A DNA stretch of 64,000 bases from Nakamurella deserti (GTDB lineage Bacteria; Actinomycetota; Actinomycetes; Mycobacteriales; Nakamurellaceae). The notes under the pieces were generated by a model that saw only the letters and a program-made list of their open reading frames with translations, ran no database searches and was not told the DNA's origin. The position numbers and the translations under genes are program-made. Position 1 is the stretch's first letter. Every line of letters begins with the position of its first letter. The stretch lies in NCBI RefSeq assembly GCF_003260015.1, contig NZ_QCXS01000002.1:2852001-2916000 (forward strand), read 5' to 3'. Positions 26,076 to 43,081 of the stretch are shown here, one piece after another.

Positions 26076-26289
26076 CCCCGCAGGGGTGGTCCCTGACCAC
26101 GGGTCGGTGCGCCCCCGACGGCGGCCGGGGTCGTCTCCCCCGCGCGGCGGACACCACGACACGACCTTCGACCGATGAAACCCCGGCGCCGATACGGCAG
26201 AGTTCTCGCCGGTGACGGACCCGGGAACGGAACGGCACCACACCGACCGGCACTCCCGCCACCGATCACCTCGCAAAGGGGATGACACC

Positions 26290-27246
26290 ATGATCGAAGC
26301 CGTAGGCCTCACGAAGAGGTACGGCGCCACGCTGGCGGTGGACGACCTGTCGTTCAGCGTCCGACCGGGAGTCGTCACCGGCTTCCTCGGACCCAACGGC
26401 GCGGGCAAGTCCACCACGATGCGGATGATCCTCGGGCTGGACAACCCGAGCGCCGGCCGGGCGCTGATCGACGGCGTCCCCTACTCCCGGATCAAGAACC
26501 CGCTGACCCGCATCGGCTCACTGCTCGACGCCAACTGGATCCACCCCAACCGCAGCGGCGGTGCCCATCTGCGCTGGATCGCCGCCTCCAACGGCATCCC
26601 GCGGTCGCGGGTCGACGAGGTGCTCGACACCGTCGGTCTCACCGCGGTGGCCGGCAAGGGCGCCGGGAAGTACTCGCTCGGCATGAAGCAGCGCCTCGGC
26701 ATCGCTGGTGCCCTGCTGGGCCGCCCCGAGATCCTGATGTTCGACGAACCGGTGAACGGCCTCGACCCCGAGGGCATCCTCTGGATCCGCAACTTCATGA
26801 AGTCGCTGGCCGCCGAGGGCAAGACCGTGCTCGTCTCGAGCCACCTGCTGTCCGAGATGGCCCTCACCGCCGACCATCTCGTCGTCATCGGCCGGGGGAG
26901 GCTGATCGCGGACTCGTCGACGAAGGACTTCATCGCCAACGCGACCTCGAGCTCGGTCCGGGTCCGCTCCCCGCAGCTGGCCCGGTTGCAGGAGGTCCTG
27001 GCCGGTGCCGGCATCCAGACGACCGCCGACGCCGACGGTCTCACCGTCGGCAACGCCCCGATCGAGCGGATCGGTGAGCTGGCCGCCGCGAACGGCCTGA
27101 CTCTGCACGAACTGTCGATCCGACGTGGTTCGCTGGAGGACGCCTTCATCAGCCTCACCGGTGGCGCCGTGGAGTACGCCGCCCACCCCGACGCCGGTCA
27201 CGGCACCACCGCAGCCGCGCTGCCCGGCTCGCCCGAAGGAAGGTGA
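26290..27246 (+). CDS. ABC transporter ATP-binding protein
   Basis: 318 residues; ATG at 26290 with AAAGGGG upstream. One nucleotide-binding domain: Walker A GPNGAGKS near 40, signature YSLGMKQRLGIAGAL, Walker B ILMFDEPVNGLDPEG, and a switch His in SSHLL. The C-terminal extension (about 220-300) is that of drug- or bacteriocin-type exporters (CcmA/YxlF-like). It powers the permease encoded four bases downstream. It probably exports a drug, peptide or lipid, or confers self-protection; the substrate is unknown. No regulator is adjacent. Confidence 0.92.
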   Translation: MIEAVGLTKRYGATLAVDDLSFSVRPGVVTGFLGPNGAGKSTTMRMILGLDNPSAGRALIDGVPYSRIKNPLTRIGSLLDANWIHPNRSGGAHLRWIAASNGIPRSRVDEVLDTVGLTAVAGKGAGKYSLGMKQRLGIAGALLGRPEILMFDEPVNGLDPEGILWIRNFMKSLAAEGKTVLVSSHLLSEMALTADHLVVIGRGRLIADSSTKDFIANATSSSVRVRSPQLARLQEVLAGAGIQTTADADGLTVGNAPIERIGELAAANGLTLHELSIRRGSLEDAFISLTGGAVEYAAHPDAGHGTTAAALPGSPEGR

Positions 27247-27250
27247 ACCG

Positions 27251-28000
27251 ATGTCGCTGATCACCGTCGAACGCATCAAGCTCTTCTCCACCCGCTCGCC
27301 CTACTGGTGTCTCGCGCTGGTGCCCGTGCTGGGCCTGGGCATCACGCTGCTGGTCTCCCTGGTCGACCGCGGCTCGGCGGCGTCGTTGGAGACCAGCCAG
27401 GCCTGGGTCAACTTCGCCATCTCGATCGTGATGGTGATGGCCGCGCTGTCCGTCACGACCGAGTACCGGTTCGGCACCATCCGCAGCTCGTTCCTCGCGG
27501 TGCCCTCGCGGTCGGGCCTGCTGCTGGCCAAGTGCGTGCTCCTCGCCGTCCTGTCTTTTCTCATCGTCGAAGTGACGTCCGTGGCCAGCTACCTGCTGGC
27601 CCGGGCGGTGCACGGCCCGGGCTCGACGGACGCGGCGTTCGCGTTGACGTCCTCCACCGACTACCGGGTGATCTGGGGTCCCGGGGTGATCGCGGCGGTC
27701 GCGGCGGTCCTGGCGATCGCGGTCGGCATCCTCATCCGGCAGTCCGCCGGCGCCATCGCGGTCGTGCTGCTGTGGCCGTTGCTCGTCGAGAACCTGTTCA
27801 ACCTCTTCGGCGACTTCGGCCGGGACCTGCAGCCGTGGCTGCCGTTCAGCGCGTCGACCGCGTTCTACAGCGGCGACAGTGGCTTCGGGCGGGCCGCCGA
27901 CGCGGCGCCCAACTGGTGGCAGGGCGGCCTGGTCTTCCTCGGCACCGCCGTCGTGCTGCTCATCCTGGCCCTGGCGTCGGCGAAGCGCCGCGACGCCTGA
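27251..28000 (+). CDS. ABC-2-type transporter permease
   Basis: 249 residues starting four bases after the ATPase gene, with GGAAGG before the ATG. Six hydrophobic segments are visible, at about 19-38, 55-72, 98-120, 145-170, 172-195 and 225-243, the usual ABC-2 exporter core. TTEYRFGTIRSSFLAVPSR, a conserved cytoplasmic loop of this group, lies near 72-90. It forms the membrane channel for the preceding ATPase. It converges on the next gene with a strong hairpin between. Confidence 0.88.
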   Translation: MSLITVERIKLFSTRSPYWCLALVPVLGLGITLLVSLVDRGSAASLETSQAWVNFAISIVMVMAALSVTTEYRFGTIRSSFLAVPSRSGLLLAKCVLLAVLSFLIVEVTSVASYLLARAVHGPGSTDAAFALTSSTDYRVIWGPGVIAAVAAVLAIAVGILIRQSAGAIAVVLLWPLLVENLFNLFGDFGRDLQPWLPFSASTAFYSGDSGFGRAADAAPNWWQGGLVFLGTAVVLLILALASAKRRDA

Positions 28001-28069: not shown

Positions 28070-29578
28070 TCAGACCGGCAGCGTCAGCACGCCGTCGATC
28101 CGGCGCGGGATCCCCGCGTCCGCGTCGCGCAGCTCCCGCGGCAGCGCCGCCTCCGGGGCGTTCTGCCAGGCCAGCGGGCGCAGCCAGCGGCGCACCGCGG
28201 TCACGCCCACCGACGTGTGCTGGGAGTTGGTGGCCGGCCAGGGGCCGCCGTGCTGCTGGGCCCAGGAGACGCGCACCCCGGTCGGGTAGCCGTTGTGGAC
28301 CAGCCGGCCCGCGAAAGGCGCCAGCGCCTCGAAGAGGTCGGCCACCACGTCGGTCTCGGTGGGCTCACCGTGGACCGTGGCGGTCAACGACCGCGGGATC
28401 CGGCCCACCGCCGCGGTGACCTCGCCGAGGTCGGCGTACCGCGCGACGACCAGCAACGGCCCGAAGCACTCCTCCGCCACCTCGGCGGTCATCGCCACGG
28501 CCGTGGTCTCCAGGAGCGTCGGCGGCACCGTGAACCCGCCGTCCGCCGCCGGTTCCGCGGCGCGGGCGAGCGGCTCGGCGCCGGCTCCGCGCAGACGGTC
28601 GGCGATGTCGTCGAAGGACGAGCGGATCCGGGCGTTCAGCAGGATGCCGGGATCCGCCGCGGTGGTACGGGTCGCGAGCTCGGCGACCAGCGCGTCACCC
28701 GCCTCACCGTCGGGCACGAACGCGATCCCCGGCTTCGTGCACAGCTGGCCGGCCGAGCCGGTGTAGGAGGTGAAGAGGCCGGCGGCGATCTCGGCGGGCC
28801 GGGCCGCGGCGGCCCCCGGGGTGACGATCAGCGGGTTGATGCTCGAGAGCTCGCCGAAGAACGGGATGGGCTCGTCCCGGGTGCCGATCGCCGCCTGCAG
28901 CGCCTCCGCCGCACCGAGGGATCCGGTGAAGCCGACGGCCCGGATCGCGGGGTGCTTCACGAGCTCGGTCCCGGCCTGCTGGCCGTACACGATGCCGACG
29001 GTGCCCGCCGGGGCGCCGGCGGTCCGGCACGCCGCCGCGAGCGTCTCGAAGGACAACTGCGACGTGCGCGGGTGCGACCCGTGGGCCTTGGCGACCACCG
29101 GGCAACCGGCCGCGATGGCCGACGCGACGTCCCCACCGAGCACCGAGAACGCGAACGGGAAGTTGCTGGACCCGAACACGGCGACCGGCCCGATCGGCAC
29201 CAGCATCCGCCGCACGTCGGGCTGCGGGCCGAGCGGGGTGTCCGCGGCGTGGTCGATGGCCGCCTCGACGTACGAGCCCTCACGGACGGCGGCGGCGAAG
29301 AGCCGGAACTGGAAGGCGCTCCGGCTGAGCTCGCCGTTCAGCCGGACCGGTCCGAGACCGGTCTCGGCGTCCGCAACCGCGACGAGTTCGGTCCGGGCGC
29401 GTTCGACGGCGGTGCCCATCGCGTCCAGCAGGTCGGCGCGGAACGCCCTCCCGCGCCACGAGAGTGACGCCGCCGCCGCAGCGGCGGCCTCGGCGATGAC
29501 GGACACCGACGCCGTCGGGGTCGGCTCGATCGTCGTGGCAGCGCTGACACCGGAGCGCGGATCGGTGGTGGTCAACAT
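28070..29578 (-). CDS. 2-oxoglutarate semialdehyde (2,5-dioxovalerate) dehydrogenase
   Basis: 502 residues; AGGAG seven bases before the ATG. It is an aldehyde dehydrogenase of the KGSADH group: SSNFPFAFSVLGGD, VVAKAHGSHP, GFTGSLGAAEAL, catalytic Glu in FFGELSSINP and catalytic Cys in GSAGQLCTKPG. These motifs separate it from betaine or succinate semialdehyde dehydrogenases. It oxidises 2-oxoglutarate semialdehyde to 2-oxoglutarate, the last step of non-phosphorylating pentose or sugar-acid pathways. The partner FAH-type dehydratase is encoded two genes upstream in the same run. The third near-copy of the LacI-type palindrome (29536-29549) lies within its first 15 codons. Confidence 0.88.
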   Translation of the reverse strand: MLTTTDPRSGVSAATTIEPTPTASVSVIAEAAAAAAASLSWRGRAFRADLLDAMGTAVERARTELVAVADAETGLGPVRLNGELSRSAFQFRLFAAAVREGSYVEAAIDHAADTPLGPQPDVRRMLVPIGPVAVFGSSNFPFAFSVLGGDVASAIAAGCPVVAKAHGSHPRTSQLSFETLAAACRTAGAPAGTVGIVYGQQAGTELVKHPAIRAVGFTGSLGAAEALQAAIGTRDEPIPFFGELSSINPLIVTPGAAAARPAEIAAGLFTSYTGSAGQLCTKPGIAFVPDGEAGDALVAELATRTTAADPGILLNARIRSSFDDIADRLRGAGAEPLARAAEPAADGGFTVPPTLLETTAVAMTAEVAEECFGPLLVVARYADLGEVTAAVGRIPRSLTATVHGEPTETDVVADLFEALAPFAGRLVHNGYPTGVRVSWAQQHGGPWPATNSQHTSVGVTAVRRWLRPLAWQNAPEAALPRELRDADAGIPRRIDGVLTLPV

Positions 29579-29618
29579 GGTGGTCTCCTGACAGGGGGGG
29601 CGCGCGGGGGCGCGGGGT

Positions 29619-30713
29619 TCACGCGCTCTCGCGCGCGACGATCGAGAAGTCGAGGTCGACGATGCTCACGTCGGAGGTCCGTCCGGACATCCGGTCGAGC
29701 AGGACGGTGCCGGCCACGGTGCCGATCCGCCGGTTGGGCACCGAGACCGTGGTGAGGGTGGGCAGCAGGTGACGGGCCAGCTCGAAGTCACCGAAGCCGG
29801 TGACCGCGAGGTCGTCGGGGATCCGGATGCCCCGGCGGGCGGCCTCCAGGATGGCGCCGGCGGCGAAGACGTCGCTGGCGAACAACAGCACGTCGGTCTC
29901 CGGGTGCAGTGACCGGGTCATGTGCAGCAACAGCCGCCCGGTGTCCAGGTCCACTTTCTGGGTCCCGGAGTCGACCACCCGGACGGGCTCGCCGGGGAAC
30001 AGCTCGGGAACCGCCTCGATGAACGCGTCCCGGCGGCGGGCCGCGCGGAAGTCGCCGGTCTGCAGCGACCCGGCGAAGGTGGGATGGCGGTAGCCGCGGT
30101 CGGCGGCGTACTGGACCACGGCCCGGGCGGCGTCGCGGTTGGAGAAGCCGACCACGGAGTCGATGGGCGTCTCGCTCATCTCCCAGGTCTCCACCGTGGG
30201 CACCCGCGACTCCTGGAGCATCCGGGTCGTCCGGTCGGTGTGGGTGGTGCCGACGATGAAGAAGCCGTCCGGCCGCCGGCCCAGGAACGCCCGGACGAGG
30301 TCCTCCTCGTGGTCGGGCCGGTATCCGGTGGAGCCGATGAACAGGTGGTAGCCCGACGGCGCGAGCACCTCCTCCAGGCCGTGCAGCGCGTCGGCGAACA
30401 CGCTGGCCGAGACGTCGGGGACGATGGCCGCCACGGTCATGCTGCGGTTGGACGCCAGGTTGGAAGCGGCCAGGTTCGGGACGTAGCCGGTGGCGATGAT
30501 GGACCGCCGCACCCGCTCCAGGGTGTGCACCGAGACCTGCTCGGGGGCGCGGATGGACCGGGACACCGTCTGCGGGGACACCTGCGCGTGCCGGGCGACG
30601 TCGTCGAGGGTGACGACGTGGGTGGAGCGCCGGGTGGGTCGGGAGGCGTCGACCGGCTCGTCGGTCGCCGCCGGCCCGGGGGCGGTCACCGGACCGGTCA
30701 CCGCAGCGGTCAC
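29619..30713 (-). CDS. LacI-family transcriptional regulator of the 28-44 kb cluster
   Basis: 364 residues from the GTG at 30713, which overlaps the stop of the FAH-type gene (GTGA). After a low-complexity N-terminus of about 30 residues comes the LacI helix-turn-helix: VTLDDVARHAQVSPQTVSRS, then a hinge helix with PNLAASNLASNRS. The periplasmic-binding-like effector domain follows (VAAIVPDVSASVFADALHGL; VTGFGDFELARHLLPTLTTV). LacI proteins bind symmetric operators centred on CG and are released by a sugar or its derivative. Two sites with the core TGGCAGCGCTGCCA in this cluster fit. The gene lies inside the operon it probably controls, a self-regulated arrangement. Confidence 0.92.
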   Translation of the reverse strand: MTAAVTGPVTAPGPAATDEPVDASRPTRRSTHVVTLDDVARHAQVSPQTVSRSIRAPEQVSVHTLERVRRSIIATGYVPNLAASNLASNRSMTVAAIVPDVSASVFADALHGLEEVLAPSGYHLFIGSTGYRPDHEEDLVRAFLGRRPDGFFIVGTTHTDRTTRMLQESRVPTVETWEMSETPIDSVVGFSNRDAARAVVQYAADRGYRHPTFAGSLQTGDFRAARRRDAFIEAVPELFPGEPVRVVDSGTQKVDLDTGRLLLHMTRSLHPETDVLLFASDVFAAGAILEAARRGIRIPDDLAVTGFGDFELARHLLPTLTTVSVPNRRIGTVAGTVLLDRMSGRTSDVSIVDLDFSIVARESA

Positions 30714-31906
30714 AGCAGGCTTCGCGCGGCGAGGTTGCGCATCAGGGACCCGATCCCGAACTCCCACGGGTCACACTCCTCGCTGGCCTGGACCTGGTTG
30801 ACCAGCGTACCCAGCTCGGCCGACGAGATGGCGACCACGTCGCCCTGCCGGTGGGTGAACCCGCGTCCGGGCTCGGCACGGTCGTCCACCGGCGCGAACA
30901 TGGTTCCCAGCATCAGGATCGCGCCGTCGGGGTACTGGTGGTGGCGTCCCATCAACTGGGCGACCAGGTCGGCGGGGTCGCGGCTGATCTGCGACATCCT
31001 GCTGGTGCCCCGGACCCGGAACCCGTCGACGCCGAGGATGTCCAGGGACACCACCATCGAGCGCACCGTGTCCAGGTCGAAGGTCGCGTCGAAGAGGCGG
31101 ATGAACGGCCCGATGGCACACGAGGCGTTGTTGTCCTTGGCCTTGCCCAGCAACAGCGCGGAGCGCCCCTCGATGTCGCGCAGGTTCACGTCGTTGCCCA
31201 GGGCCGCACCGCGGATGCGCCCGCGTGAGTCCACGACGAGGACGACCTCGGGTTCGGGGTTGTTCCAGCTCGACGTGGACAGCACCCCGACCGCGGTGGC
31301 CGTGCCGACGGCCGCCATCACCGGCGCCTTGGTGAAGATCTCGGCGTCGACGCCGATCCCCACCTCCAGGTACTGACTCCACAGGCCCTCGGCCACGAGA
31401 TACTGCTTCAGCGACTGGGCCTCCGCCGACCCCGGGGTGAGATCACCGAGCTCGACACCGATCTCGGACAGGATCTGATCACGCATGGCGGCGGCGGCGT
31501 CCGGGTCGCCGTGCACCCGCTCCTCGATGACCCGCTCGATCATCGACACCGCGAAGGTGACCCCGGCGGCCTTCACCGCCTGCAGGTCGATGGGCGCCAG
31601 CAGCCACGGCCGCTCCGGGTTCCGGCCGGCGGGCGGGGTGTTGGCCAGCAGCTCCGCCAGCGAGCCGATCCGCTCCCCCGCCGCGCCGCGGGCCGCTGCG
31701 GCGGGGTCGTCGGTCTCCATCAGGTCGCGGACCGTCGCGAACGAGGCTGCCAGGTCGAACACCCCGTCCGCCCGGATCAGCACCGGTGACGGGCCACCGT
31801 GCTCGGGTCGCCAGACCCGGCCGACGAGGGTGCCCGCGCAGCCGTCGTCGGGCAGGGTGGTCGGGATGTCGGGGGCGAGAACCGGTCGGTCGGTGGTGGT
31901 CGTCAT
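30710..31906 (-). CDS. FAH-family sugar-acid dehydratase, XylX-like
   Basis: 398 residues; ATG at 31906 with GAGGAG nine bases upstream, preferred over an in-frame GTG at 31930. The C-terminal half is a fumarylacetoacetate-hydrolase fold with NNPEPEVVLVVDSRG, LGNDVNLRDIEGRSALLLGK and AKDNNASCAIGPFIRLFD. From memory this last block is typical of the group that includes Caulobacter XylX, a 2-keto-3-deoxy-xylonate dehydratase; I could not verify it by alignment. Such an enzyme forms 2-oxoglutarate semialdehyde from a 2-keto-3-deoxy-pentonate, exactly the substrate for the dehydrogenase encoded nearby. The stereochemistry of its substrate is not readable from the sequence. Confidence 0.82.
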   Translation of the reverse strand: MTTTTDRPVLAPDIPTTLPDDGCAGTLVGRVWRPEHGGPSPVLIRADGVFDLAASFATVRDLMETDDPAAAARGAAGERIGSLAELLANTPPAGRNPERPWLLAPIDLQAVKAAGVTFAVSMIERVIEERVHGDPDAAAAMRDQILSEIGVELGDLTPGSAEAQSLKQYLVAEGLWSQYLEVGIGVDAEIFTKAPVMAAVGTATAVGVLSTSSWNNPEPEVVLVVDSRGRIRGAALGNDVNLRDIEGRSALLLGKAKDNNASCAIGPFIRLFDATFDLDTVRSMVVSLDILGVDGFRVRGTSRMSQISRDPADLVAQLMGRHHQYPDGAILMLGTMFAPVDDRAEPGRGFTHRQGDVVAISSAELGTLVNQVQASEECDPWEFGIGSLMRNLAARSLL

Positions 31907-31932
31907 GGGGGCGGACTCCTCGGTGGGCACGG

Positions 31933-32733
31933 TCAGCGGCGGTGGAACGTGGCCGGACGCTTCTCGGCGAAGGCGGCGCGGCCCTCGTCGGCGTCGGCCG
32001 TGGCGAAGGTGACGGTCTGCAGGTCCCGCTCGTACCGGATGGCCTCCTCCTGCGGCAGGTTGTACGCCGCGCGGAGGTTGGCCTTGGCGGTCTCCGCGGC
32101 GATCGGCGGCCGGGAGGCGATGACGGCGGCCAGTTCCCGGGCCCGCGGCAGCAGCCGCTCCGGCGGGACGATCTCCGAGACCAGTCCCCAGGTCAGCGCG
32201 CGGGCGGCGTCGATCGGATCACCGGTCATCAGCATCACGGCCGCGTTACTGGCACCGATAGAGTGCGCCAGGAAGGTGCTCATCCCGCCGCCGCCGATCC
32301 AGCCGAGCTTGATCTCGGGGGCGGCGAAGGACGCCGTCTCGGAGGCGATCCGGATGTCGCAGGTCATCGCGGTCTCGAGGCCGCCGCCGAAGGCGTAGCC
32401 GTTGACCGCGGCGATCAGCGGCTTGCGCAGCCGGCGCAGGGCGTCGCAGTAGTCCTCGCGGTTGCGGAACTGCCAGGGCGTGGCGTACTTGTCCAGCGTC
32501 CGGATGTCCGACCCGGCGCAGAACGCCCGGTCGCCGGCCCCGGTCAGGATGACCGCGCGGACGTCGTCGTGGTCGTTGGCCCAGGTCATCGCGACGACCA
32601 GCGCGTCGGACATCTCCTGGGTCACCGAGTTCAGCTTGCGCGGCCGGTCGATCGTCACCACGGCCACCAGACCGTGGAGTTCCAGCCGGATCTCGTCGGT
32701 GCCGAGATCCGGGAGCGCGGGGTCAGTCGTCAT
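31933..32733 (-). CDS. Enoyl-CoA hydratase/isomerase family protein
   Basis: 266 residues. Crotonase fold: the oxyanion segments CAGSDIRTLDKY and GGGLE, and both acidic residues of true hydratases, the Glu in GGGLETAMTCDIRIA and the Glu in APEIKLGW. The loop after it, IGGGGMSTFLAHSIG, is unusual compared with the common PGAGGTQRL form. It should hydrate or isomerise a 2-enoyl-CoA, yet it lies among sugar-acid genes. It starts one base after the stop of the solute-binding-like gene, so it belongs to the same three-gene module with the CoA-transferase. Confidence 0.87.
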   Translation of the reverse strand: MTTDPALPDLGTDEIRLELHGLVAVVTIDRPRKLNSVTQEMSDALVVAMTWANDHDDVRAVILTGAGDRAFCAGSDIRTLDKYATPWQFRNREDYCDALRRLRKPLIAAVNGYAFGGGLETAMTCDIRIASETASFAAPEIKLGWIGGGGMSTFLAHSIGASNAAVMLMTGDPIDAARALTWGLVSEIVPPERLLPRARELAAVIASRPPIAAETAKANLRAAYNLPQEEAIRYERDLQTVTFATADADEGRAAFAEKRPATFHRR

Positions 32734-32734
32734 G

Positions 32735-33859
32735 TCAGACCTTCTCGGGGAGGGTGCGGGCGAGGCTGTGCCGGTACCGGTCGCGCAGTGCGGCCAACCC
32801 GGCCCGCGGCGGGGTGGTGCCGTCGACGATGTCGCGGACGACCGCCGACGCCTCCGTCTGGAAGCGGATGAACCCCGCGTGCCGGGGGCGGACCCAGGCG
32901 TCGGAGACGGTCGCCAGGGTTGCGCGGTAGAACCCCGCGGCGGATTCGTCGAGGTCGGGATCGAGCCACGCGAGGCGGGCGCTCGGCTGGCCGTCGTGCT
33001 GTGGGATGAACCGGGTCTGGGCGAGATCACCCATCAGCCACTCGATGTGGCGCACCAGCTCGGGAGTGACCACCGCCCGGCGGGACAGCGCGAGCCCCGT
33101 ACCACCCAGGGTGGACCCGTGCCGGCCACCGGCCGTGGCGACCGGCGCGTCGCTGAACCGGACGTCGGCCGAACTGTAGGTGACGTAGCCGTAGACCAAC
33201 GGGCAGTAGGCGATGTCGGTGGTGCTGCGCAGCCGTTCGAGCAGGGCGATGGGGTTGGCGACGGCGGTCCCGGCGGGCGCCCGCCGGGCGAGCTCCGACA
33301 TCAGGTCCAGCACCGTCAGGGCGACCTCGTCGGAGACGAGATCGTCTCCGTCGCAGGGCTCGTCGTGGGCCGCACAGATCGAGGCGAAGGTCAGGTAGGC
33401 GTGCGGGCCGGCCAGCGACAGGGCCACCGGCACCTCCGCCGAGAGCGCCCGGACCTCCTCCCAGGTGTGCGGCGGCGCAGCCAGCAGCGCCGTCCGGCTC
33501 ACCGCGACCTGGGTCGCGGCGTCCAGCGGCACCGCCCACTGCGCCCCGGCCACCGCATAGGACGCGAACGACGGCCCGACGGCGGCCGACCGCCACCGGG
33601 CCAGCACCGCCGGATCGACCACGGTGTCCAGGGCGATCAACGAACCGTGCTCCAGCGCCTCCCCGAGATGCGGGTGATCGAGCACGATGAGGTCGTGATC
33701 GCGGGCCAGCTCGTCGATCGGGAACGACTCGAAGTGCTCGAGACTGTGCGCCTTCCAGACGATGTCGAGGCCGGAACCGGCGGCACGCTCGCGGTCGGCG
33801 GCGGCGACCAGGGCGTTGCGCCCCCGCGGGTGGTCCCAGGTGATGCCCGCGTACCTCAC
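32735..33859 (-). CDS. Solute-binding-protein-like protein without signal peptide
   Basis: 374 residues from the GTG at 33859, overlapping the CoA-transferase stop by four bases. The chain starts RYAGITWDHPRGRNAL, with no charged-hydrophobic signal sequence, lipobox or membrane helix, so it should be cytoplasmic. The rest resembles family 1 extracellular solute-binding proteins: an early IVWKAHSLEHFES strand-helix, HDLIVLDHPHLGEAL, then WAVPLDAATQVAVSRTALL and a TWEEVRAL helix. I recall such proteins beside CaiB/BaiF genes in other bacteria but cannot verify it. It may sense or deliver a cytoplasmic ligand, or have become an enzyme. Its function is unknown. Confidence 0.72.
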   Translation of the reverse strand: MRYAGITWDHPRGRNALVAAADRERAAGSGLDIVWKAHSLEHFESFPIDELARDHDLIVLDHPHLGEALEHGSLIALDTVVDPAVLARWRSAAVGPSFASYAVAGAQWAVPLDAATQVAVSRTALLAAPPHTWEEVRALSAEVPVALSLAGPHAYLTFASICAAHDEPCDGDDLVSDEVALTVLDLMSELARRAPAGTAVANPIALLERLRSTTDIAYCPLVYGYVTYSSADVRFSDAPVATAGGRHGSTLGGTGLALSRRAVVTPELVRHIEWLMGDLAQTRFIPQHDGQPSARLAWLDPDLDESAAGFYRATLATVSDAWVRPRHAGFIRFQTEASAVVRDIVDGTTPPRAGLAALRDRYRHSLARTLPEKV

Positions 33860-35148
33860 GCGGGCCCGCCCTGGCCGGCCGGGGCGACGCCGGCGGCCGG
33901 CATCGTGTCGGGCGTGGCCTCGGCGGCCGCCGGTTCCGCGGCGACCACCCCGCCGTCGACCAGCTGCTCGATGCGCTCCGGGGCCACCCCGAGCTCGGTG
34001 AGGATCTCCCGGGTGTGCTCGCCGGCCAACGGTGCGCCGCGGTCGATGCGCGGCGGGGTGACCGACATCCCGTACGGGAACCCGGGGGTCCGGATCCGGC
34101 CCTCGGTGGGGTGGTCGTACTCGATGAACGTACCGTTGTGGACGATCTGCGGATCGTCGACGAGGTCCTGGTAGTCGTACACCGGACCGGCCCAGATGCC
34201 GACCGCGTCGAACGCCTCCAGCCACTCCGCGGTGGCCCGTTCGACCAGCCGGGCGGCGGTCCGCTCGTAGATCTCGTCGCGGTGGGTCCAGCTGTCCACC
34301 TCGGTGTCCATCGACAGGAACGAGTCCTCACCGATGACCTTGCCGAGCAGCGGGAGCTCGGGCATCGCCAGCGCGAGAAAGCCGTCGGAGGTGGCGAAAG
34401 CGCCGTAGGGGGCGCGGATGTAGACGTGGGCGTGCGGCTGCTGCCCACGGGTCTGCGCCACCTGGCCGACGGTGAACACCGACAGCTCCTGCATCTGCAG
34501 CGTGGTGATGGCGTCCAGCATGTTGACCGTGACGAGCTGGCCCTGGCCGGTGCGCTCGCGGTGGAACAGGGCGGCGAGCACCCCCTCAAACGCCGTGGAG
34601 GCGGTGACGGCGTCCACGAGGTACTGCCCGGCCGGCTGCGGCGGCGTCCCGTGGCTGCCCGCGGAGAGCATCGCACCGCTCATCGCCTGCAGCAGCAGGT
34701 CCTGCCCCGGACGGTTGCGGTACGGGCCGTCCTCGCCGTAGCCGGACATGCTGACGTAGACCAGGCCCGGATTGATCGCCCGCAGCGTCTCGTAGTCGAC
34801 CCCGAGCCGACCCGCCACTCCGGGGCGGTAGTTCTGCAGGAAGACGTCGCTGGTGGCGACGAGGTCGTACAGGATCGACCGCCCCTCGTCGCTCTTCAGG
34901 TCGACCGCGATGGACCGCTTGTTCCGGTTCAGCGACAGGAACGACACGTTGATCCGGTTACCGGTGGCACCACCGGCCGCGGCGTGCCGCTGCCACTCGC
35001 CGGTGATGGGCTCGACCTTGATCACGTCGGCGCCGAGGTCGCCCAACCGCTGTGCGGCGAACGGCCCGGCCATCGCGATCGAGCAGTCGAGCACGCGGAC
35101 GCCCGACAGGACCTCCGGGGCGGCGGTCGGTGCGGCAGGTTCAGTCAT
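33856..35148 (-). CDS. CaiB/BaiF family CoA-transferase
   Basis: 430 residues. Class III CoA-transferase: the N-terminal LSGVRVLDCSIAMAGPFAAQRLGDLGADVIKVE, here in two parts, is the hallmark, followed by NRNKRSIAVDLKS and the likely catalytic Asp in GQYLVDAVTAS. The C-terminus carries an extra Ala/Pro tail of about 35 residues. It moves CoA between carboxylic acids through a glutamyl/aspartyl-CoA style intermediate. It heads the operon with the solute-binding-like and hydratase genes, directly after a perfect palindrome at 35179-35200. The natural acyl donor and acceptor are unknown. Confidence 0.9.
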   Translation of the reverse strand: MTEPAAPTAAPEVLSGVRVLDCSIAMAGPFAAQRLGDLGADVIKVEPITGEWQRHAAAGGATGNRINVSFLSLNRNKRSIAVDLKSDEGRSILYDLVATSDVFLQNYRPGVAGRLGVDYETLRAINPGLVYVSMSGYGEDGPYRNRPGQDLLLQAMSGAMLSAGSHGTPPQPAGQYLVDAVTASTAFEGVLAALFHRERTGQGQLVTVNMLDAITTLQMQELSVFTVGQVAQTRGQQPHAHVYIRAPYGAFATSDGFLALAMPELPLLGKVIGEDSFLSMDTEVDSWTHRDEIYERTAARLVERATAEWLEAFDAVGIWAGPVYDYQDLVDDPQIVHNGTFIEYDHPTEGRIRTPGFPYGMSVTPPRIDRGAPLAGEHTREILTELGVAPERIEQLVDGGVVAAEPAAAEATPDTMPAAGVAPAGQGGPA

Positions 35149-35178
35149 CTGATGTCCGTTCGGAGCAGGTGTTCGGAA

Positions 35179-35200
35179 GCGATGGCAGCGCTGCCATCGC
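35179..35200. promoter_or_regulatory. Perfect 22-base palindrome, probable LacI-type operator
   Basis: A perfect inverted repeat of 22 bases with the core TGGCAGCGCTGCCA, flanked symmetrically by GCGA and TCGC. It lies 31 bases upstream of the CoA-transferase gene. The same 14-base core recurs at 39365-39378. Even-length symmetry with a central CG is characteristic of LacI-family operators, and a LacI gene is in the same cluster. Confidence 0.75.
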
Positions 35201-35235
35201 GGTAGCAGCGCAGGGGCGGAGGTCCGCCGGGTCGG

Positions 35236-36360
35236 TCAGGCCGGTTGATCACCGGCGGCGCGGACCGCCGCCCGCACGGCGTCGACCTCGGCCGCACCGT
35301 CGAGGAAGCGGATCGTCGTCCGGTACTCACGGGCGTCGCCGTGCTCGAGCCAGATCATCGATCCGTCCTCGCGGGCGGCGGAGTCGCCGGCGACGTGGTG
35401 CGTCGAGGGCTCCAGGCCGACGGCGTACTGCCCACTGCGCAGGTTCTGCCACTCGAAGAAGCACGGCATCCCGGCGGCGTCCCAGGCGACCTCGACCCCC
35501 AGCGTGCGGTCACCGCGCAGCAGCGCGACCCGGTGCCGACCGTCCGGCCCGGCCACGAGCTCGTGCTCGCTGACCTGTTCGACGAAATGCAGCTGCGGTG
35601 CGGGCATGGTCCGGTAGGAGGTGCCCTGTTCGGCGACGGAGTCCGAGGCCCACAGGTGCCGGCGGATCGGGGCCACGAACTCCGTGCCCTCGTCCACGAT
35701 CGGCCACCCGAAGTTGAAGTGGTACAGGAACATGTGGGGCGTTGGCTCGAAGCCGAGGTTGTCCACCACGTCGTGCAGCCGCAGTTCGCGGCCGTCGATG
35801 TCGACCTCGATGGTCCGGGTGAGGCGCAGGTGTTCGCCGAACGAGGTGGCCTGGACGACCTCGCCCACCACACGCAGCACCCACCGGTCGCCGTCGACCA
35901 CCTCCCTCGCCTCCAGCAGGCGGGCCGGGATCGCGGTCAGCCTCCCGTGCAGGCCGTGGGACACCGTGTCCTTCGGCGGGTAGGCGTACCGGGTGGCGTC
36001 CACCGTCCCACCGAAGAGCGTGTGGTCCAGCCCCCCGGACACCAGCAGCCCGTCCACGGCGCGCAGCCACGACAGGCCGCCCTCGTCGGAGTGTTCGTGC
36101 AGCCCGGGATGACGGAAGCCGTTACCCGACCGCCAGCCGAAGGGCACGCCCCGCAGCCGCGCCGAGCCGAGATCCATGGCCCGGTCGATCAGCACCTCGA
36201 TCTCCAGACCCGACGAGGTGCGCAGGTCGATCGCGCGCACCCCGCGCTGCACCCCGTCGTCCAGGACCACCGAGCGGATCCCGGCGACCGCGGACACGTC
36301 ACCGGTGCGGGCGGCGAGTTCCCGCCGGCTCAGCCGGTTCCCGAAGACCTCGTACGTCAC
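35236..36360 (-). CDS. DUF4432 / aldose-1-epimerase-like protein
   Basis: 374 residues from the GTG at 36360, which overlaps the SDR stop (GTGA); an ATG 12 bases earlier is possible. Beta-rich galactose-mutarotase-like fold: IDRAMDLGSARLRGVPFGW, NGFRHPG, GGLSWLRAVDGLLVSGGLDHT, SHGLHGRLTAIPA with a conserved His pair, and MFLYHFNFGWP. DUF4432 proteins are related to aldose 1-epimerases and accompany sugar-catabolic genes. A mutarotase or ketose-epimerase role on the cluster's sugar is likely but unproven. Confidence 0.85.
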   Translation of the reverse strand: MTYEVFGNRLSRRELAARTGDVSAVAGIRSVVLDDGVQRGVRAIDLRTSSGLEIEVLIDRAMDLGSARLRGVPFGWRSGNGFRHPGLHEHSDEGGLSWLRAVDGLLVSGGLDHTLFGGTVDATRYAYPPKDTVSHGLHGRLTAIPARLLEAREVVDGDRWVLRVVGEVVQATSFGEHLRLTRTIEVDIDGRELRLHDVVDNLGFEPTPHMFLYHFNFGWPIVDEGTEFVAPIRRHLWASDSVAEQGTSYRTMPAPQLHFVEQVSEHELVAGPDGRHRVALLRGDRTLGVEVAWDAAGMPCFFEWQNLRSGQYAVGLEPSTHHVAGDSAAREDGSMIWLEHGDAREYRTTIRFLDGAAEVDAVRAAVRAAGDQPA

Positions 36361-37097
36361 TCCATCACCCATCCACCGTCGACGTTGATCGTCTGGCCGG
36401 TCACGAAGCTCGCGTCCGGCCCGACGAGGAAGCTCACCACGGCGGCCAGTTCGGCGTCGGTACCGCGCCGCTTGATCGCCTGGTGCTCGATGACGTGCGC
36501 GGCGTACTCCGCCGCGTCGCCCTGGATCTCCTCGGCCTTCGTCGGGAACGCGCCCGGGGACACCGCGTTGACGCGGACGCCGAACGGGCCCAGCTCCCGC
36601 GCCAGCGCACGGGTCAGCGCGACCGCGGCGCCCTTGGTCGAGACGTAGCTGGCCAGGTTGGACCAGCCGCCGTGCCAGGTGATGGAGCCGACGTTGACGA
36701 TGGCACCCTCGCGCCGCTGCACCATGCCGCGGGCGGCCACCTGGGCGGCGTGGAAGTACCCGCGCTGGTTGACCGTCACGACGTCGTCGTACTCGGTCAA
36801 CGGGATGTCCAGGAACGGCGTGCTGGGATAGATCGCCGCGTTGTTGATCAGCGCCCCGACCGGGCCGAAATCCCGGTCGGTGGCGGTGATCGCGGACTCG
36901 ATCGACGCGGCGTCGCGCAGATCCACCTCCAGCACGCGCACCGGCACGCCGGCTTCGTCGAGCAGCTGGGCGGTCTCGTCCAACGCCGCACCGCGGCGGC
37001 CGAGCACCGCCACTCCGAAGCCGTCCGCACCCAGTCGCAGCGCGGTGGCGCGGCCGAGCGCACCGCCCGCTCCGGTGACGATCGCCGATCTGTCCAT
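36357..37097 (-). CDS. Short-chain dehydrogenase/reductase
   Basis: 246 residues, classical SDR. NAD(P) site AIVTGAGGALGRATALRL, INNAA near 88, catalytic Ser in VNVGSITWHGG, YVSTK (Tyr and Lys), and the C-terminal FVTGQTINVDGGW. It likely oxidises a sugar or sugar-alcohol hydroxyl, as the DxR-like acidic residue after the second strand is not obvious and the cofactor preference is unclear. It is translationally coupled to the DUF4432 gene and follows the TIM-barrel gene by 31 bases. In the regulon it is a candidate for the first oxidation step. Confidence 0.9.
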   Translation of the reverse strand: MDRSAIVTGAGGALGRATALRLGADGFGVAVLGRRGAALDETAQLLDEAGVPVRVLEVDLRDAASIESAITATDRDFGPVGALINNAAIYPSTPFLDIPLTEYDDVVTVNQRGYFHAAQVAARGMVQRREGAIVNVGSITWHGGWSNLASYVSTKGAAVALTRALARELGPFGVRVNAVSPGAFPTKAEEIQGDAAEYAAHVIEHQAIKRRGTDAELAAVVSFLVGPDASFVTGQTINVDGGWVME

Positions 37098-37128
37098 CCT
37101 CTTCCCTCCGTCGAGCCGGTACCGCAGC

Positions 37129-38043
37129 TCAGATGCTGTAGGCCTTGAGTGTGTCGGTCACGAACTTCTTCGCGCGCGGCACGTCCGATTCGTCGAGGTG
37201 CTCGATGATCAGCGGCACGTTGGGGTTGCGCTCGGACAGCCGCTGGAGGTACAGGTCGTAGTTGAGCGACCCCAGACCGGCAGCGGGCAACTCGATCTCG
37301 CCGACGCCCCGGAAGGTGTGCGACGCCAGGGCGTCGTCGTCGCCGATGTCGGCGTGCTTCTCGCTCTTGTCGTCCCCGGCGCGCTTGACGTCCTTGGCGT
37401 GGGCGATGCGCACCCGGTCGCCGAGGGTGTCGAACACCTCGTTGAGCACGGCGTCCATGTCGTCGATGTTGTTCTCGTCGAAGTAGTTCGTCGGGTCCGA
37501 CACCAGATCCAGTCCAGGACTGCGGATGTCGTTGAAGACCCGGACGGTCTCGCGGACCGAGCCGATGACGTTGTTGACGTAGGTCTCCAGCAGGAACGTC
37601 GCCCCGTGGTCGTAGGCCTCCTGGGCGAGCTCGGCCAGCACGTCCCGGACCTGCTCGTAGGCGTCCTCGGTGCGGTTGTGCGGATCGTGGTCCCACTCGC
37701 TGTCCGGGTTGAAGGTGCCGGACTCGCTGATGACGTAGGCGCTGCCGAAATCACGGGCGTTGCGGATGATCTCCTTCAACCGCTCGACGTTGCTCCGTCG
37801 GTGCTCGAGGTCGGGGTGCACGATGTTGGTGTAGCCGGAGATGGCGCAGACCGGGAGGTCGTGGTCGCGGAAGGTGTCGGCGACCCGCTTGGCCTTCTCC
37901 TTGGTGATCTGGCCCGCCGACAGGTCGACGTCCTTGAAGTGCAGGTCCAGCTGAACGGTGTTGAAGCCGAGGTTGCGGATCGTCTTCGCAGTGGTCTCGA
38001 GGTCGTAGGGGAAGTACCCGCTGAAGATTCCTACCTGGATCAT
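37129..38043 (-). CDS. Sugar phosphate isomerase/epimerase (AP endonuclease-2 fold)
   Basis: 304 residues, TIM barrel of the xylose-isomerase-like family. It opens IQVGIFSGYFPYDLETTAKTIRNLGFNTVQLDLHF; metal-site candidates include the Glu in FLLETYVNN, DLVSDPTNYFDENNID, IAHAKDVKR and the final LIIEHLDESD. Members interconvert ketoses, keto-inositols or sugar acids using a divalent metal. A GTG 12 bases upstream of the chosen ATG overlaps the ribosome site and is less likely. It sits between the Gfo/Idh oxidoreductase and the SDR, implying an oxidise-isomerise-oxidise sequence. Confidence 0.87.
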   Translation of the reverse strand: MIQVGIFSGYFPYDLETTAKTIRNLGFNTVQLDLHFKDVDLSAGQITKEKAKRVADTFRDHDLPVCAISGYTNIVHPDLEHRRSNVERLKEIIRNARDFGSAYVISESGTFNPDSEWDHDPHNRTEDAYEQVRDVLAELAQEAYDHGATFLLETYVNNVIGSVRETVRVFNDIRSPGLDLVSDPTNYFDENNIDDMDAVLNEVFDTLGDRVRIAHAKDVKRAGDDKSEKHADIGDDDALASHTFRGVGEIELPAAGLGSLNYDLYLQRLSERNPNVPLIIEHLDESDVPRAKKFVTDTLKAYSI

Positions 38044-38186
38044 GGGCGTCGTCACTCCTGTGTGAGGGTCGTCGGGGCCGGGCGGTGGTGGTACGGCGGT
38101 GCCGGTTCGGGGTGCTGCGGGTGGGGTGCTGCCGGGGGCGTGCGGTACGGGCGGGATCGACGGTGGTGCGGGCGGGACCGCCCGGC

Positions 38187-39287
38187 TCAGACGGGGAACT
38201 CGCTGAGCGGAACGGGCCGGCGCTCGGCGATGGACCGGTAGCCGGCCTCCACCAGCGCCATGGTCCGTACGTTGTCGGCGACGGACAGTTCGGCCGCGGT
38301 GCCGGTCGCGACCGCGTACTGCACCTGCTCCATCACCCCGACGAAGGCGTGCGGGAACCAGTGGGTGTCCCAGGTGGGGGTGATCCACCGACCGCCGGTG
38401 GTGTCGGCCGAGGCGTAGGCCAACGTCGACGGGGAGCCGTCGGGCCAACCGATGGTGCCCTTGGCGACACCGCGGGTGCCTTCGACGCGCCACGAGATGT
38501 ACTCGTCGGACGGATAGCCGTCCTCCCGCGGACCGCTCCAGACGTCCTCCAGGGACAGCGCGAGCAGGTTGCCCGGGAAGCGCAAGGTGGACACCACGAT
38601 GCCGTCGGTGTGCTCGAATTCGGTGCGGGGGTCCTCCCGCACGACGGTCGAGATCTCGGTCGGCTCGCCGAAGAGGTGACGCAGGGCGTCGAGGTGGTGG
38701 ACGCTCATGTTGGCCAGGGTCAGGCGGTCGTAGGCGGCGAGGAAACCCTGCCAGTGCGGGATGGCGTGCATCTCGATGGACGCGAACACCGGCTCGCCCA
38801 GGTCGCCGCGGTCCAGGAGCTGCTTGAGCACCCGGATCGACTGGTCGAACCGCATGTTCTGGTTGACCGACAGGATGGTGCCGGCCGCCGCCGCCTCGTC
38901 GCGGAGCGCGATCGCCTCGTCGAGGTCCAGGGCCAGCGGCTTCTGGGCCAGCACGGCCTTGATGTGCGGACGGGCCAGCGCCGCCCGGATGAGGGCCGGC
39001 TGCTGGTCGGGAGGGTAGGCGATGTCGAGGATCTCGACGCGCTCGTCGTCCAGCAGGGCGATCGGGTCGTCGTGGACGGTCCCGATCCCGTGCTGTGCGG
39101 CCACCCGGCGGGCGTTGGCCGGCGTCCGGGACGCGATGGCCACCACCGGGAACCCGGCGTGCCGGTAGGCCACCAGATGCTGCTCGGCCATGATCATGCC
39201 GGCACCGAGGCAGCCGATCCCGTGCCCCCGGGCCCGGATCTCGACATCCGGCTCGAACCGCGCGGTGTCGGTCTCGGTAGTGGTCAC
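38187..39287 (-). CDS. Gfo/Idh/MocA family oxidoreductase
   Basis: 366 residues; GTG at 39287 with a near-perfect AAAGGAG upstream. Rossmann fold with GCLGAGMIMAEQH, then VAQ...AQKPLAL, where the family EKP is QKP. The C-terminal alpha/beta domain includes HHLDALRHLFGEP with a likely catalytic His. These enzymes oxidise sugars, inositols or amino sugars with NAD(P). It is divergent from the ABC importer, and its promoter shares the palindromic operator region at 39356-39378. It is probably first in the minus-strand run. Confidence 0.9.
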   Translation of the reverse strand: MTTTETDTARFEPDVEIRARGHGIGCLGAGMIMAEQHLVAYRHAGFPVVAIASRTPANARRVAAQHGIGTVHDDPIALLDDERVEILDIAYPPDQQPALIRAALARPHIKAVLAQKPLALDLDEAIALRDEAAAAGTILSVNQNMRFDQSIRVLKQLLDRGDLGEPVFASIEMHAIPHWQGFLAAYDRLTLANMSVHHLDALRHLFGEPTEISTVVREDPRTEFEHTDGIVVSTLRFPGNLLALSLEDVWSGPREDGYPSDEYISWRVEGTRGVAKGTIGWPDGSPSTLAYASADTTGGRWITPTWDTHWFPHAFVGVMEQVQYAVATGTAAELSVADNVRTMALVEAGYRSIAERRPVPLSEFPV

Positions 39288-39355
39288 GCCAGTCTCCTTT
39301 CGCGTCGTTGCGAGTATCACCGGATCCCTCGTCACCTCGGACCGGTGCAATCTGA

Positions 39356-39446: not shown

Positions 39447-40526
39447 GTGCACAGAACACCGCGCGCTACAAGCACTCTCACCGGTCTGACCGCCCTCGTG
39501 TGTATCGCCGCGGTGACCGGCTGCTCGAGCGCACCGGCACCGTCCACCCCCGCCGCCGCCTCCGGATCGGCGGCGGCCGGCAAGTTCGTGATCGGGTTCG
39601 AGCAACCGCTGGGCGGCCAGGCCTGGCGCGAGATGGGCCTGGCGTCGCTGCAGGCGCTCGCCGCCTCCCCCGCCTACAAGGACAAGGTCGAGCTCAAGAT
39701 CGTCCGCACCAACGACAACGATGCCGCCCAGCAGAACGCGGCGATGCAGAACCTCATCGCCGACGGTGTCGACCTCATCCTCTTCGATCCCGCTTCGTCC
39801 AGCGGTGCCGACGCCGCGATCACCCAGGCCGCCGCCCAGGGCATCCCGGTGATCGCCAACGGCGGACCCTACGACGGGGACGACGTCTACATCGTGTCCA
39901 CCGACTGGGCCAACGCCGGCACCATCGGGGCCGACTGGCTGCTGGAGAACCTCGGCGAGAACAAGAACGTCGCGGTGCTCGAGGGACTCGCCGGGGTGCC
40001 GCTGAACGAGGGGTCGATGCCCGGCGTCATCGAGCGGCTGGAGGCCGGGGGCGCCACCGTCGTCGCCCAGGACACCAACGGCTGGAACGAGGCCACCGCA
40101 CAGGAGGCCATGTCCAACATCCTGCGATCCAACCCCGACATCGGTGGCGTGTACTCCTTCCTCACCGGCGGTCAGGGGGTGCCCGAGGCGTTCAGCGCCG
40201 CCGGTCTGCCCTTCGTCCCGGTCGTCGGCGGCTCCGGGTACAACGGCGAGGCCTGCGAACTGGTGGAGAGCGGCCCGAAGGGCCTGTCGGGCGACATGGT
40301 CTTCGGCCAGCCGGCCATCTACGCCAAGGGGCTGGAGCAGGCGGTCAAGCTGCTCGAGGGCGGCACCATCGAGAAGGCCCAGTACTTCCCGCCGCTAGAG
40401 ATCACCAACGACAACGCCGCCGACTACTGCCTGGCGGACAAGCCGGCGAATTTCCAGCTCGGCTACGACTTCCCCGGTCTCGACCTCAGCCTGGACGAGG
40501 TCCTGAAGTACTACTCCGGGTCGTAG
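39447..40526 (+). CDS. Sugar ABC importer substrate-binding lipoprotein
   Basis: 359 residues from a GTG with AAAGGAG upstream. The signal peptide ends in the lipobox AVTGC (Cys near 24), followed by a Ser/Ala/Pro linker. The mature part is a type I periplasmic-binding fold: KFVIGFEQPLGGQAWREMG, DLILFDPASSSGAD, QGIPVIANGGPYDGDD and the LTGGQGVPEAFSAAG turn. It is anchored on the outer face of the membrane and presents a sugar-like ligand to the permeases encoded downstream. It is related to ribose/fructofuranose-type binding proteins; the exact sugar is unknown. Confidence 0.92.
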   Translation: MHRTPRATSTLTGLTALVCIAAVTGCSSAPAPSTPAAASGSAAAGKFVIGFEQPLGGQAWREMGLASLQALAASPAYKDKVELKIVRTNDNDAAQQNAAMQNLIADGVDLILFDPASSSGADAAITQAAAQGIPVIANGGPYDGDDVYIVSTDWANAGTIGADWLLENLGENKNVAVLEGLAGVPLNEGSMPGVIERLEAGGATVVAQDTNGWNEATAQEAMSNILRSNPDIGGVYSFLTGGQGVPEAFSAAGLPFVPVVGGSGYNGEACELVESGPKGLSGDMVFGQPAIYAKGLEQAVKLLEGGTIEKAQYFPPLEITNDNAADYCLADKPANFQLGYDFPGLDLSLDEVLKYYSGS

Positions 40527-40532
40527 GTCCCC

Positions 40533-42086: not shown

Positions 42087-43081
42087 GCACCCTGGTCACC
42101 CCGCGGCGGCTGCTCGACCGCAGCGGCGTCGTGCGACTGCGCCGGGAGGGTGCGATCCCGCCCATCGGGGCGTTCCTGCTGTTCCTGCTGGTCTACGTGA
42201 TCATCAATCCGAGCCTGCTGACCCGGTTCCAGCTGCAGACCGCGGTCAACCTGGTCGTGCCGCTGGCGCTGGTCGCACTGGGTCAACTGATCATCGTGCT
42301 GGTCGGCGGGATCGACATCTCCATCGGCGCCACGATGAGCCTGGCCAACGTGGTCTTCGCGTCGCAGACCGAATCGCTGCCGACGGCGGTGGCGATGGTG
42401 CTGGCGCTGCTCGTGGGGCTGGCCTGCGGGGTGTTCAACGGGCTTCTCGTCGCCTACGGCGGGCTGCCGGCCATCGCGGTCACCCTGGCGAGCGCGTTCA
42501 TCTTCGGCTCGCTCGCACGGGAGGTGCTGGACCGGCCCGGTGGCGACATCTCCAAGGAGTTCTACCTGGCCACCTCCGGCGAATTCGTGCCGTTCGTGCC
42601 GATCGCGCTGGTCTGGCTGGCCGTCGTCGCGGTCCTGCTGTGGCTGCTGCTGCAGCGCACCGCCCTCGGGCGTCACATCTACGGGGTCGGGTCGAGCATG
42701 GACAGCGTCCGGGCCGCCGGTCTCGACGACCGGCGCACCACGTTGATCGCCTTCGGGCTGGCCGGGCTCGTGACCGCGATGGGCGCCATCCTGCTGGCCG
42801 GATCCACCCTCACCGGTGATCCCCGCAGCGGCGACTCGTACCTGCTGAGCTCGATCGCCGCGGTGGCGCTCGCCGGCGCGGCCTTCACCGGCGGTCGCGG
42901 CAGCATCATCGGGACCATCCTCGCCGCCTGCACCCTCGGGTTGATCGGCAACCTGCTCTTCTTCGCCGGCGTCAACTCCTACTGGCAGTACGTCATCAGC
43001 GCGCTCATCATCGTGGCCGTCGTCGGCGTTCCCGTGGTGTGGCGGATGCTGTCGTTCCGGATGAAGGGCGGCCGGTCGTGA
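42083..43081 (+). CDS. Sugar ABC importer permease 1
   Basis: 332 residues from a GTG overlapping the ATPase stop. About eight to ten hydrophobic segments follow the RbsC-type pattern (BPD_transp_2): LIIVLVGGIDISIGATMSLAN, here split, AVTLASAFIFGS, and a late SIAAVALAGAAFTGGRGSIIGT. It forms half of a heterodimeric channel with permease 2. A short basic N-terminus precedes the first helix. Its stop overlaps the start of permease 2. Confidence 0.93.
   Translation: MSTLVTPRRLLDRSGVVRLRREGAIPPIGAFLLFLLVYVIINPSLLTRFQLQTAVNLVVPLALVALGQLIIVLVGGIDISIGATMSLANVVFASQTESLPTAVAMVLALLVGLACGVFNGLLVAYGGLPAIAVTLASAFIFGSLAREVLDRPGGDISKEFYLATSGEFVPFVPIALVWLAVVAVLLWLLLQRTALGRHIYGVGSSMDSVRAAGLDDRRTTLIAFGLAGLVTAMGAILLAGSTLTGDPRSGDSYLLSSIAAVALAGAAFTGGRGSIIGTILAACTLGLIGNLLFFAGVNSYWQYVISALIIVAVVGVPVVWRMLSFRMKGGRS

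Follow-up and report, generated by a model that had tools for sequence, protein, structure and literature searches.

A sugar-receptor fold lacking an export signal, encoded between CoA-transferase and hydratase genes and predicted to act in the cytosol

In a 64,000-nucleotide stretch of the Nakamurella deserti genome (contig NZ_QCXS01000002.1, positions 2,852,001 to 2,916,000; hereafter the window), we observed a gene for a receptor-fold protein without a recognizable export signal, situated between genes encoding a CaiB/BaiF class III CoA-transferase (CaiB) and an enoyl-CoA hydratase/isomerase family protein (ECH). Functional coupling of this protein to the CoA-transferase and hydratase is well supported, as is, from the reading of its N-terminus and those of its relatives, a predicted cytosolic location. 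Co-inheritance with the two enzyme genes suggests that the protein hands sugar-derived acids to these enzymes. The explanation we favor, with a probability of roughly 45%, is that a former family-1 receptor of the maltose/trehalose type lost its signal and now serves as a cytosolic sugar-acid-binding partner of the class III CoA-transferase.

The first-pass annotation of this DNA had described a four-base overlap with the CaiB/BaiF gene and a stop one base short of the hydratase gene. Both were seen: the GTG start of the receptor-fold gene overlaps the CaiB stop, and base 32734 alone separates its own stop from the hydratase gene (Table 1). Stoichiometric production of the proteins, which the annotation derived from this arrangement, is not something that gene order by itself can establish. 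The N-terminus of the protein is likewise without a signal-like stretch, as had been claimed. An in-frame signal sequence upstream, named beforehand as the observation that would overturn this reading, was looked for and none was found. The frame is open upstream to 34327, and the 50 codons read there are Arg/Gly-rich and lie within the CaiB gene; export by way of an alternative start was rejected on these grounds.

The receptor-fold gene belongs to a run of ten closely packed minus-strand genes extending from 28070 to 39350, with gaps of −58 to 87 bases when measured between ORF limits (the last gap becomes 143 bases if the xylose-isomerase-like gene starts at 38043). The CaiB neighbor is a full CoA_transf_3 protein in which Asp179 lines up with the aspartate of YfdW and SUGCT, which we take to be the catalytic Asp of class III CoA-transferases. 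In the ECH protein, Glu120 and Glu140 align with both Glu residues of mitochondrial ECH. In relatives, the DUF4432 gene is annotated as “aldose 1-epimerase family protein.” The FAH-superfamily protein, which could instead start at an internal ATG (31906), is homologous to 2q18 (E = 1.1e-19) and to 9kkt (E = 3.5e-123), a structure whose label states no function. The aldehyde dehydrogenase (ALDH) matches 1eyy (E = 1.6e-93) and 3v4c, with no NCBIfam model above its cut-off. By the ALDH end of the operon, at 26212-28000 on the plus strand, an ABC-type ATPase gene is followed by a membrane-like translation without a Pfam match; this is probably an unrelated exporter pair.

Table 1. Coordinates of the operon, the divergent importer and members of the second receptor family (window positions unless a locus is given)
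Feature	Coordinates	Strand	Model match or remark
Aldehyde dehydrogenase, NADP type, candidate 2-oxoglutarate-semialdehyde dehydrogenase	28070-29578	minus	
LacI-family regulator	29619-30767	minus	GntR closest in NCBIfam, subthreshold
FAH-superfamily protein, probably 2-keto-3-deoxy-pentonate dehydratase type	30710-31930	minus	
Enoyl-CoA hydratase/isomerase family (ECH), 266 aa	31933-32733	minus	ECH_1, 3e-65
Leaderless family-1 receptor-fold gene	32735-33859	minus	GTG start, 374 aa
Four-base overlap, CaiB stop / GTG start of receptor-fold gene	33856-33859	minus	
CaiB/BaiF class III CoA-transferase, 430 aa	33856-35148	minus	CoA_transf_3, 7e-107
DUF4432, aldose-1-epimerase-like	35236-36372	minus	DUF4432, 1.5e-87
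SDR oxidoreductase, candidate aldose 1-dehydrogenase	36357-37097	minus	
Xylose-isomerase-like TIM-barrel protein, ATG start 38043	37129-38043	minus	AP_endonuc_2, 3.1e-26
Gfo/Idh/MocA oxidoreductase, start uncertain	38187-39350	minus	
Importer receptor, lipoprotein-like N-terminus	39447-40526	plus	Peripla_BP_4
ABC importer ATPase	40533-42086	plus	ABC_tran
ABC importer permease	42083-43081	plus	BPD_transp_2
Second-family member	L024:1426-2613	minus	
Second-family member	L129:11439-12671		
Second-family member	L130:7112-8239		
Second-family member	L131:7001-8236		

The first-pass annotation erred in stating that no permease genes accompany the protein: a complete ABC sugar importer, permease included, is encoded divergently at 39447-43081 on the plus strand. 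Its ATPase is 78 to 82% identical to those at the corresponding position in relatives L031 to L036. The importer receptor (start taken from the ORF list; the Peripla_BP_4 scan began at 39471) belongs to a fold class different from that of the leaderless protein. Permeases usually served by family-1 receptors are of the CUT1/MalFG type, and BPD_transp_2 is another type. Because the importer carries its own receptor, no evident transport role is left for the leaderless protein.

Likeness of the protein to solute-binding proteins, noticed in the first-pass annotation, was borne out by the fold and, below the Pfam cut-off, by the profile. The window protein matched no NCBIfam model, and its Pfam match was subthreshold only (SBP_bac_8, 21.8 bits; Pfam cut-off, 27). 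Some relatives score above the SBP_bac_8 cut-off, and among the 66 members of alignment A2, the window protein included, SBP_bac_8 was detected in 53 and SBP_bac_1 in 44 at E = 0.01. The structure comparison that had been proposed gave a predicted two-lobed family-1 sugar-receptor fold that is complete and spans the whole chain. The AlphaFold model (mean pLDDT, 96.0; pTM, 0.94) aligned with LpqY (7ape) over 361 residues at Z = 35.6, an rmsd of 2.9 and 17% identity (Foldseek, VIA-align); TMBP, SmoF and MalE3 tied with LpqY as fold matches, identity being at most 17% in the best rows. Every match listed, the best 50 per aligner, was a sugar receptor or a tag fusion of one. Enzymes of the MqnA, HemC and THI5 kind, which are built on type II binding folds, were not among these listed matches, but this excludes nothing.

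Conservation within the family points to the cleft. Across 15 divergent sequences, 32 positions were invariant, several of them in motifs that match sugar-receptor ligand loops. By hand count in the HMMER alignment, Arg324 aligns with LpqY Arg404 and Gly253 with LpqY Gly334. According to the LpqY study (PMC7949145), Arg404 links hinge and ligand, the Arg404Ala variant shows no detectable binding, and the buried glucose is touched by the Gly334 backbone. LpqY Asn134, which is important for trehalose, aligns with Ala115 of the receptor-fold protein, and the LpqY contacts Glu241 and Trp259 fall outside the aligned segments. A receptor predicted to close on a sugar-like ligand fits these observations best, and that ligand is probably not trehalose.

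The absence of an export signal extends to the relatives. In 96 of the 98 loci surveyed (L013 to L110), the start lay 3 to 24 residues (median, 7) ahead of the TW in the signature G[LMI]TWxHxRG; the upper bound arises partly by construction, since the start was assigned by rule to the closest ATG, GTG or TTG 3 to 25 residues ahead of TW. The two loci dropped were L104, which is frameshifted, and L106, in which the motif has no start within 25 residues. We judged N-termini by hydropathy and start position, calling signal-like any with a 10-residue hydropathy mean of at least 2.0. By this measure, none of the 96 relatives had a signal-like N-terminus, whereas 10 of 12 control receptors taken from these loci did. 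As for the two controls below the mark, one (L022:2215) has an N-terminus that looks signal-like by eye, and the other (L024:1426-2613) is another leaderless receptor. When starts were ignored and the 45 codons ahead of TW were scored, a signal-like stretch appeared in 1 of 96 (L022), within the overlapping CaiB gene. Annotated starts of relatives agree with the chosen ones. Moreover, the first strand of the model starts at residue 2, which leaves hardly any space for a leader. Given that no export signal was detected, the protein should remain in the cytosol. In the frameshifted locus, a Brucella cytisi contig, tblastn placed CaiB, ECH and other cluster genes in several frames, and the TW motif was unreadable; this state reflects either decay or poor assembly.

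Public records name these relatives “extracellular solute-binding protein” or “carbohydrate ABC transporter substrate-binding protein.” An earlier search of genome contigs with the single window protein as query yielded zero relatives; a profile search of contigs from named genomes with alignment A1 found at least 584 relatives (584 of 598 stretches). Loosening the threshold from E = 1e-5 to E = 1 raised the number of matching plasmid records from 145 to 147, and in an evenly spaced listing of the plasmid results the weakest member stood at E = 3e-31 and the next row at E = 0.2. Some profile match was obtained in 165 of the 296 genomes of a class sample, mostly weak, as from ordinary receptors; 15 matches in 14 genomes reached at least 276 bits, and the next stood at 69 bits. 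The leaderless receptor family is sharply bounded and large, with members in Actinomycetota, Pseudomonadota (Alpha- and Betaproteobacteria) and Bacteroidota. Two very small genomes (G230 and G331; contigs of 1.46 and 1.55 Mb) carry the gene adjoining MaoC, in clusters (L121 and L122) that also hold CaiB, a second MaoC and Gfo/Idh, the former additionally with RraA-like and amidohydrolase genes.

Across this family, the gene keeps company with CaiB. Counting as adjacent any same-strand gene less than 300 bases away on either side, we found CaiB as the direct neighbor in 90 of the 98 loci; 5 others have it further off in the locus, and 3 lack it there. These numbers include near-identical strains (several Sinorhizobium and Azospirillum) and so do not represent 98 independent cases. 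For L044 and L050, which have no CaiB in the locus, the genome encodes elsewhere a CaiB that shares 74% identity with the window CaiB. A Microvirga plasmid record (L027) carries two mannonate dehydratases, with CaiB, ECH and MaoC all missing from its 17 kb, which indicates that the module is not always a dehydratase replacement. No other locus examined has the protein next to mannonate dehydratases (L027:6973-9158) with CaiB, ECH and MaoC not found. Mandelate-racemase-family genes lie nearby in L022 and L026. In 12 further loci, picked to include divergent and second copies, CaiB was in the cluster in all 12 and adjacent in 8. All five class-sample genomes with a CaiB of at least 62% identity carry the receptor-fold protein. 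In 9 of the 14 protein-bearing genomes, no CaiB matched that of the window at E = 1e-100, and the loci inspected from these nine contain more distant CaiB genes.

A hydratase is also a regular companion. Our main scan covered the best 80 loci of the at least 584 relatives; we scored genes as present by tblastn at thresholds that we set ourselves, and 71 of the 80 loci span the full 21 kb, the rest ending at contig ends. ECH at 55% identity or more was present in 76 of these 80 best-scoring loci, a selection that leans toward the ECH type. The other four carry MaoC (L065, L096 and L076) or a distant ECH (L106), so that every main-scan locus holds a hydratase, be it ECH or MaoC instead. ECH and MaoC have different folds and the same chemistry, and the shared demand therefore seems to be hydration or dehydration of a CoA thioester. 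One relative has a CoA-ligase-like AMP-binding gene next to the protein, and its CaiB lies 9 kb off. CaiB (also at 55% identity or more) was present in 77 of the 80 loci, SDR in 59, DUF4432 in 53, FAH in 51 and ALDH in 20, which makes the trio of CaiB, receptor and ECH steadier than the other operon genes. Both Glu residues of ECH (120 and 140) and Asp179 of CaiB are retained. Linkage counts of this kind, recurring across phyla, rule out a chance neighborhood, and the earlier reading of a family-1 fold without an export signal, linked through gene order to CoA-transferase and hydratase genes, holds here and in at least several hundred relatives.

Sequence divergence is less informative as to contact. 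In 61 loci, mean pairwise identity was 57% for the receptor-fold protein (SBP), 74% for CaiB and 71% for ECH. Faster variation than in CaiB and ECH is unusual for a core subunit and counts against the explanation we favor. Distances of the SBP correlated with those of ECH (r = 0.853) as well as with those of CaiB (r = 0.836). We dropped tree congruence as evidence of contact because the SBP tracks ECH as well as it tracks CaiB, and co-inheritance suffices to explain this.

The strongest hint of a direct partnership came from clusters with two transferases. Persicobacter and Rufibacter, both Bacteroidota, share the gene order SBP1-CaiB1-CaiB2-SBP2, in which SBP2 belongs to a second, distant receptor family without a signal-like N-terminus (profile comparison probability, 95%; E = 2.3e-8). 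One receptor per transferase is a hint of contact, not proof of it. Croceibacterium, Persicobacter, Rufibacter and the haloarchaeon Halostagnicola all have members of this second family near or beside genes for CaiB, MaoC and Gfo/Idh; in the last, an AMP-binding gene and MaoC flank SBP2, and CaiB is 3 kb off. The annotated start of the Rufibacter plasmid member (L130, at 7112) seems to be about 40 codons late, and upstream of it the frame encodes residues matching the N-termini of second-family relatives.

How such a partnership might work can be outlined from the operon, and we infer the ligand, the contact, the reaction and the order of steps. The receptor-fold protein would close on a sugar-derived acid in its cleft and present it to CaiB, which would draw CoA from a donor, for example succinyl-CoA, and place it on the acid. 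Thioester formation would acidify the alpha proton, allowing the hydratase (ECH here, MaoC elsewhere) to remove water and give a 2-keto-3-deoxy acid as its CoA ester. This acid would be freed as CaiB moves the CoA to the next acid, in the manner of CaiB-CaiD; comparable passing of CoA to the next acid occurs in the carnitine pathway. Such a module could substitute for a missing aldonate dehydratase in a Weimberg-like route, running from import (ABC importer) through mutarotation (DUF4432) and oxidation (SDR) to CoA-dependent dehydration (CaiB, receptor and ECH), a second dehydration (FAH) and finally 2-oxoglutarate (ALDH). No aldonate dehydratase of the IlvD/EDD or enolase family was detected among the ten operon genes scanned, and the annotation of four FAH clusters (L013, L014, L017 and L021) names none in any of the four. 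FAH-superfamily 2-keto-3-deoxypentonate dehydratases yield 2-oxoglutarate semialdehyde, according to PMC6336799, and FAH-type dehydratases are also described in PMC9795676. With ALDH in only 20 and FAH in 51 of the 80 loci, the Weimberg reading suits only part of the family. Some clusters include L-rhamnose mutarotase, RhaT or fucosidase genes, which suggests that versions of the module handle several sugars.

The main rival to this explanation is a stand-alone enzyme built on the receptor fold, for example a lactonase, epimerase or acyl-CoA hydrolase that works on the sugar acid ahead of CaiB and the hydratase or after them, with the linkage to CaiB reflecting nothing beyond a shared pathway. 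We regard this as unlikely. It would account for the invariant polar residues within the cleft motifs and for the lack of a lactonase among the ten operon genes scanned, and it sits easily with CaiB adjacency that is not universal, as in the Microvirga gene without a nearby CaiB; enzymes on type II binding folds do exist (HemC, MqnA and THI5). However, the protein retains the hinge Arg and Gly loop of a closing receptor, the fold matches listed are sugar receptors or tag fusions, lactonases are present besides the protein in L017 and L027, and clusters with two CaiB genes have one receptor for each.

Also unlikely, in our estimate, is a cytosolic protein with no direct catalytic role that buffers or senses a pathway intermediate or helps CaiB to fold or assemble. 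A nonexported fold that closes on its ligand would suit storage or sensing, and the variation observed, faster than that of the enzymes, fits such a role. Against this, the clusters carry their own LacI or IclR regulators, and the strong conservation of the cleft would be unneeded for a mere chaperone. That the protein is an ordinary receptor, its export signal missed through a wrong start or a nonclassical route, we consider scarcely credible. Public annotation of the relatives as extracellular or ABC substrate-binding proteins would favor it; yet signal-like N-termini numbered 0 of 96, with 1 of 96 (L022) in the 45 codons before TW, annotated starts of relatives concur, and the importer in the window has its own receptor.

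Hundreds of genomes carry the receptor-fold protein, and annotation places it outside the cell, in transport. If our explanation is true, these extracellular and transport labels are wrong, and a receptor fold has switched from transport to partnership with a cytosolic CoA enzyme. CoA-dependent dehydration of sugar acids would then fill gaps in sugar pathways without a known dehydratase. More broadly, it is possible, though doubtful, that these proteins belong to an undescribed class of intracellular catabolic machines, in which Venus-flytrap receptors of at least two divergent families, moved from the cell surface to the cytosol in at least three bacterial phyla and haloarchaea, load class III CoA-transferases, and ECH or MaoC dehydrates polyhydroxylated sugar acids in the form of CoA thioesters, a task otherwise left to iron-sulfur or enolase-type dehydratases. 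CaiB, receptor and hydratase together make a three-gene test case that can be assayed directly.

A published description of a receptor fold combined with a CoA-transferase and a hydratase was not found in a search that left most subscription papers outside its reach. What would be new is the place and partnership of the fold; the fold itself is known. With the family-1 ABC sugar receptors (SBP_bac_1/SBP_bac_8; LpqY, TMBP/MalE and SmoF), the protein shares the complete two-lobed fold, at Z of about 35, and the hinge Arg and Gly loop aligned with LpqY ligand contacts; it differs in that 96 relatives are without an export signal and in that its gene stands beside CoA-transferase and hydratase genes. 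The CaiB-CaiD carnitine pathways share a CaiB-family transferase and a crotonase-family hydratase with the aligned Asp and Glu residues, whereas here the context is a sugar pathway and a receptor-fold gene is inserted between the transferase and hydratase genes; we know of no such third gene in the carnitine operon. Benzylsuccinate CoA-transferase (PDB 9fn0) is alike in being a class III CoA-transferase with a second kind of subunit, although both of its subunits match CaiB and the partner proposed here is a receptor fold. Finally, Weimberg-type pentose pathways have in common with this operon an SDR, an FAH-type 2-keto-3-deoxypentonate dehydratase-like protein and an NADP-type aldehyde dehydrogenase, but the operon is without a recognized aldonate dehydratase and has CaiB, the receptor and ECH in its place.
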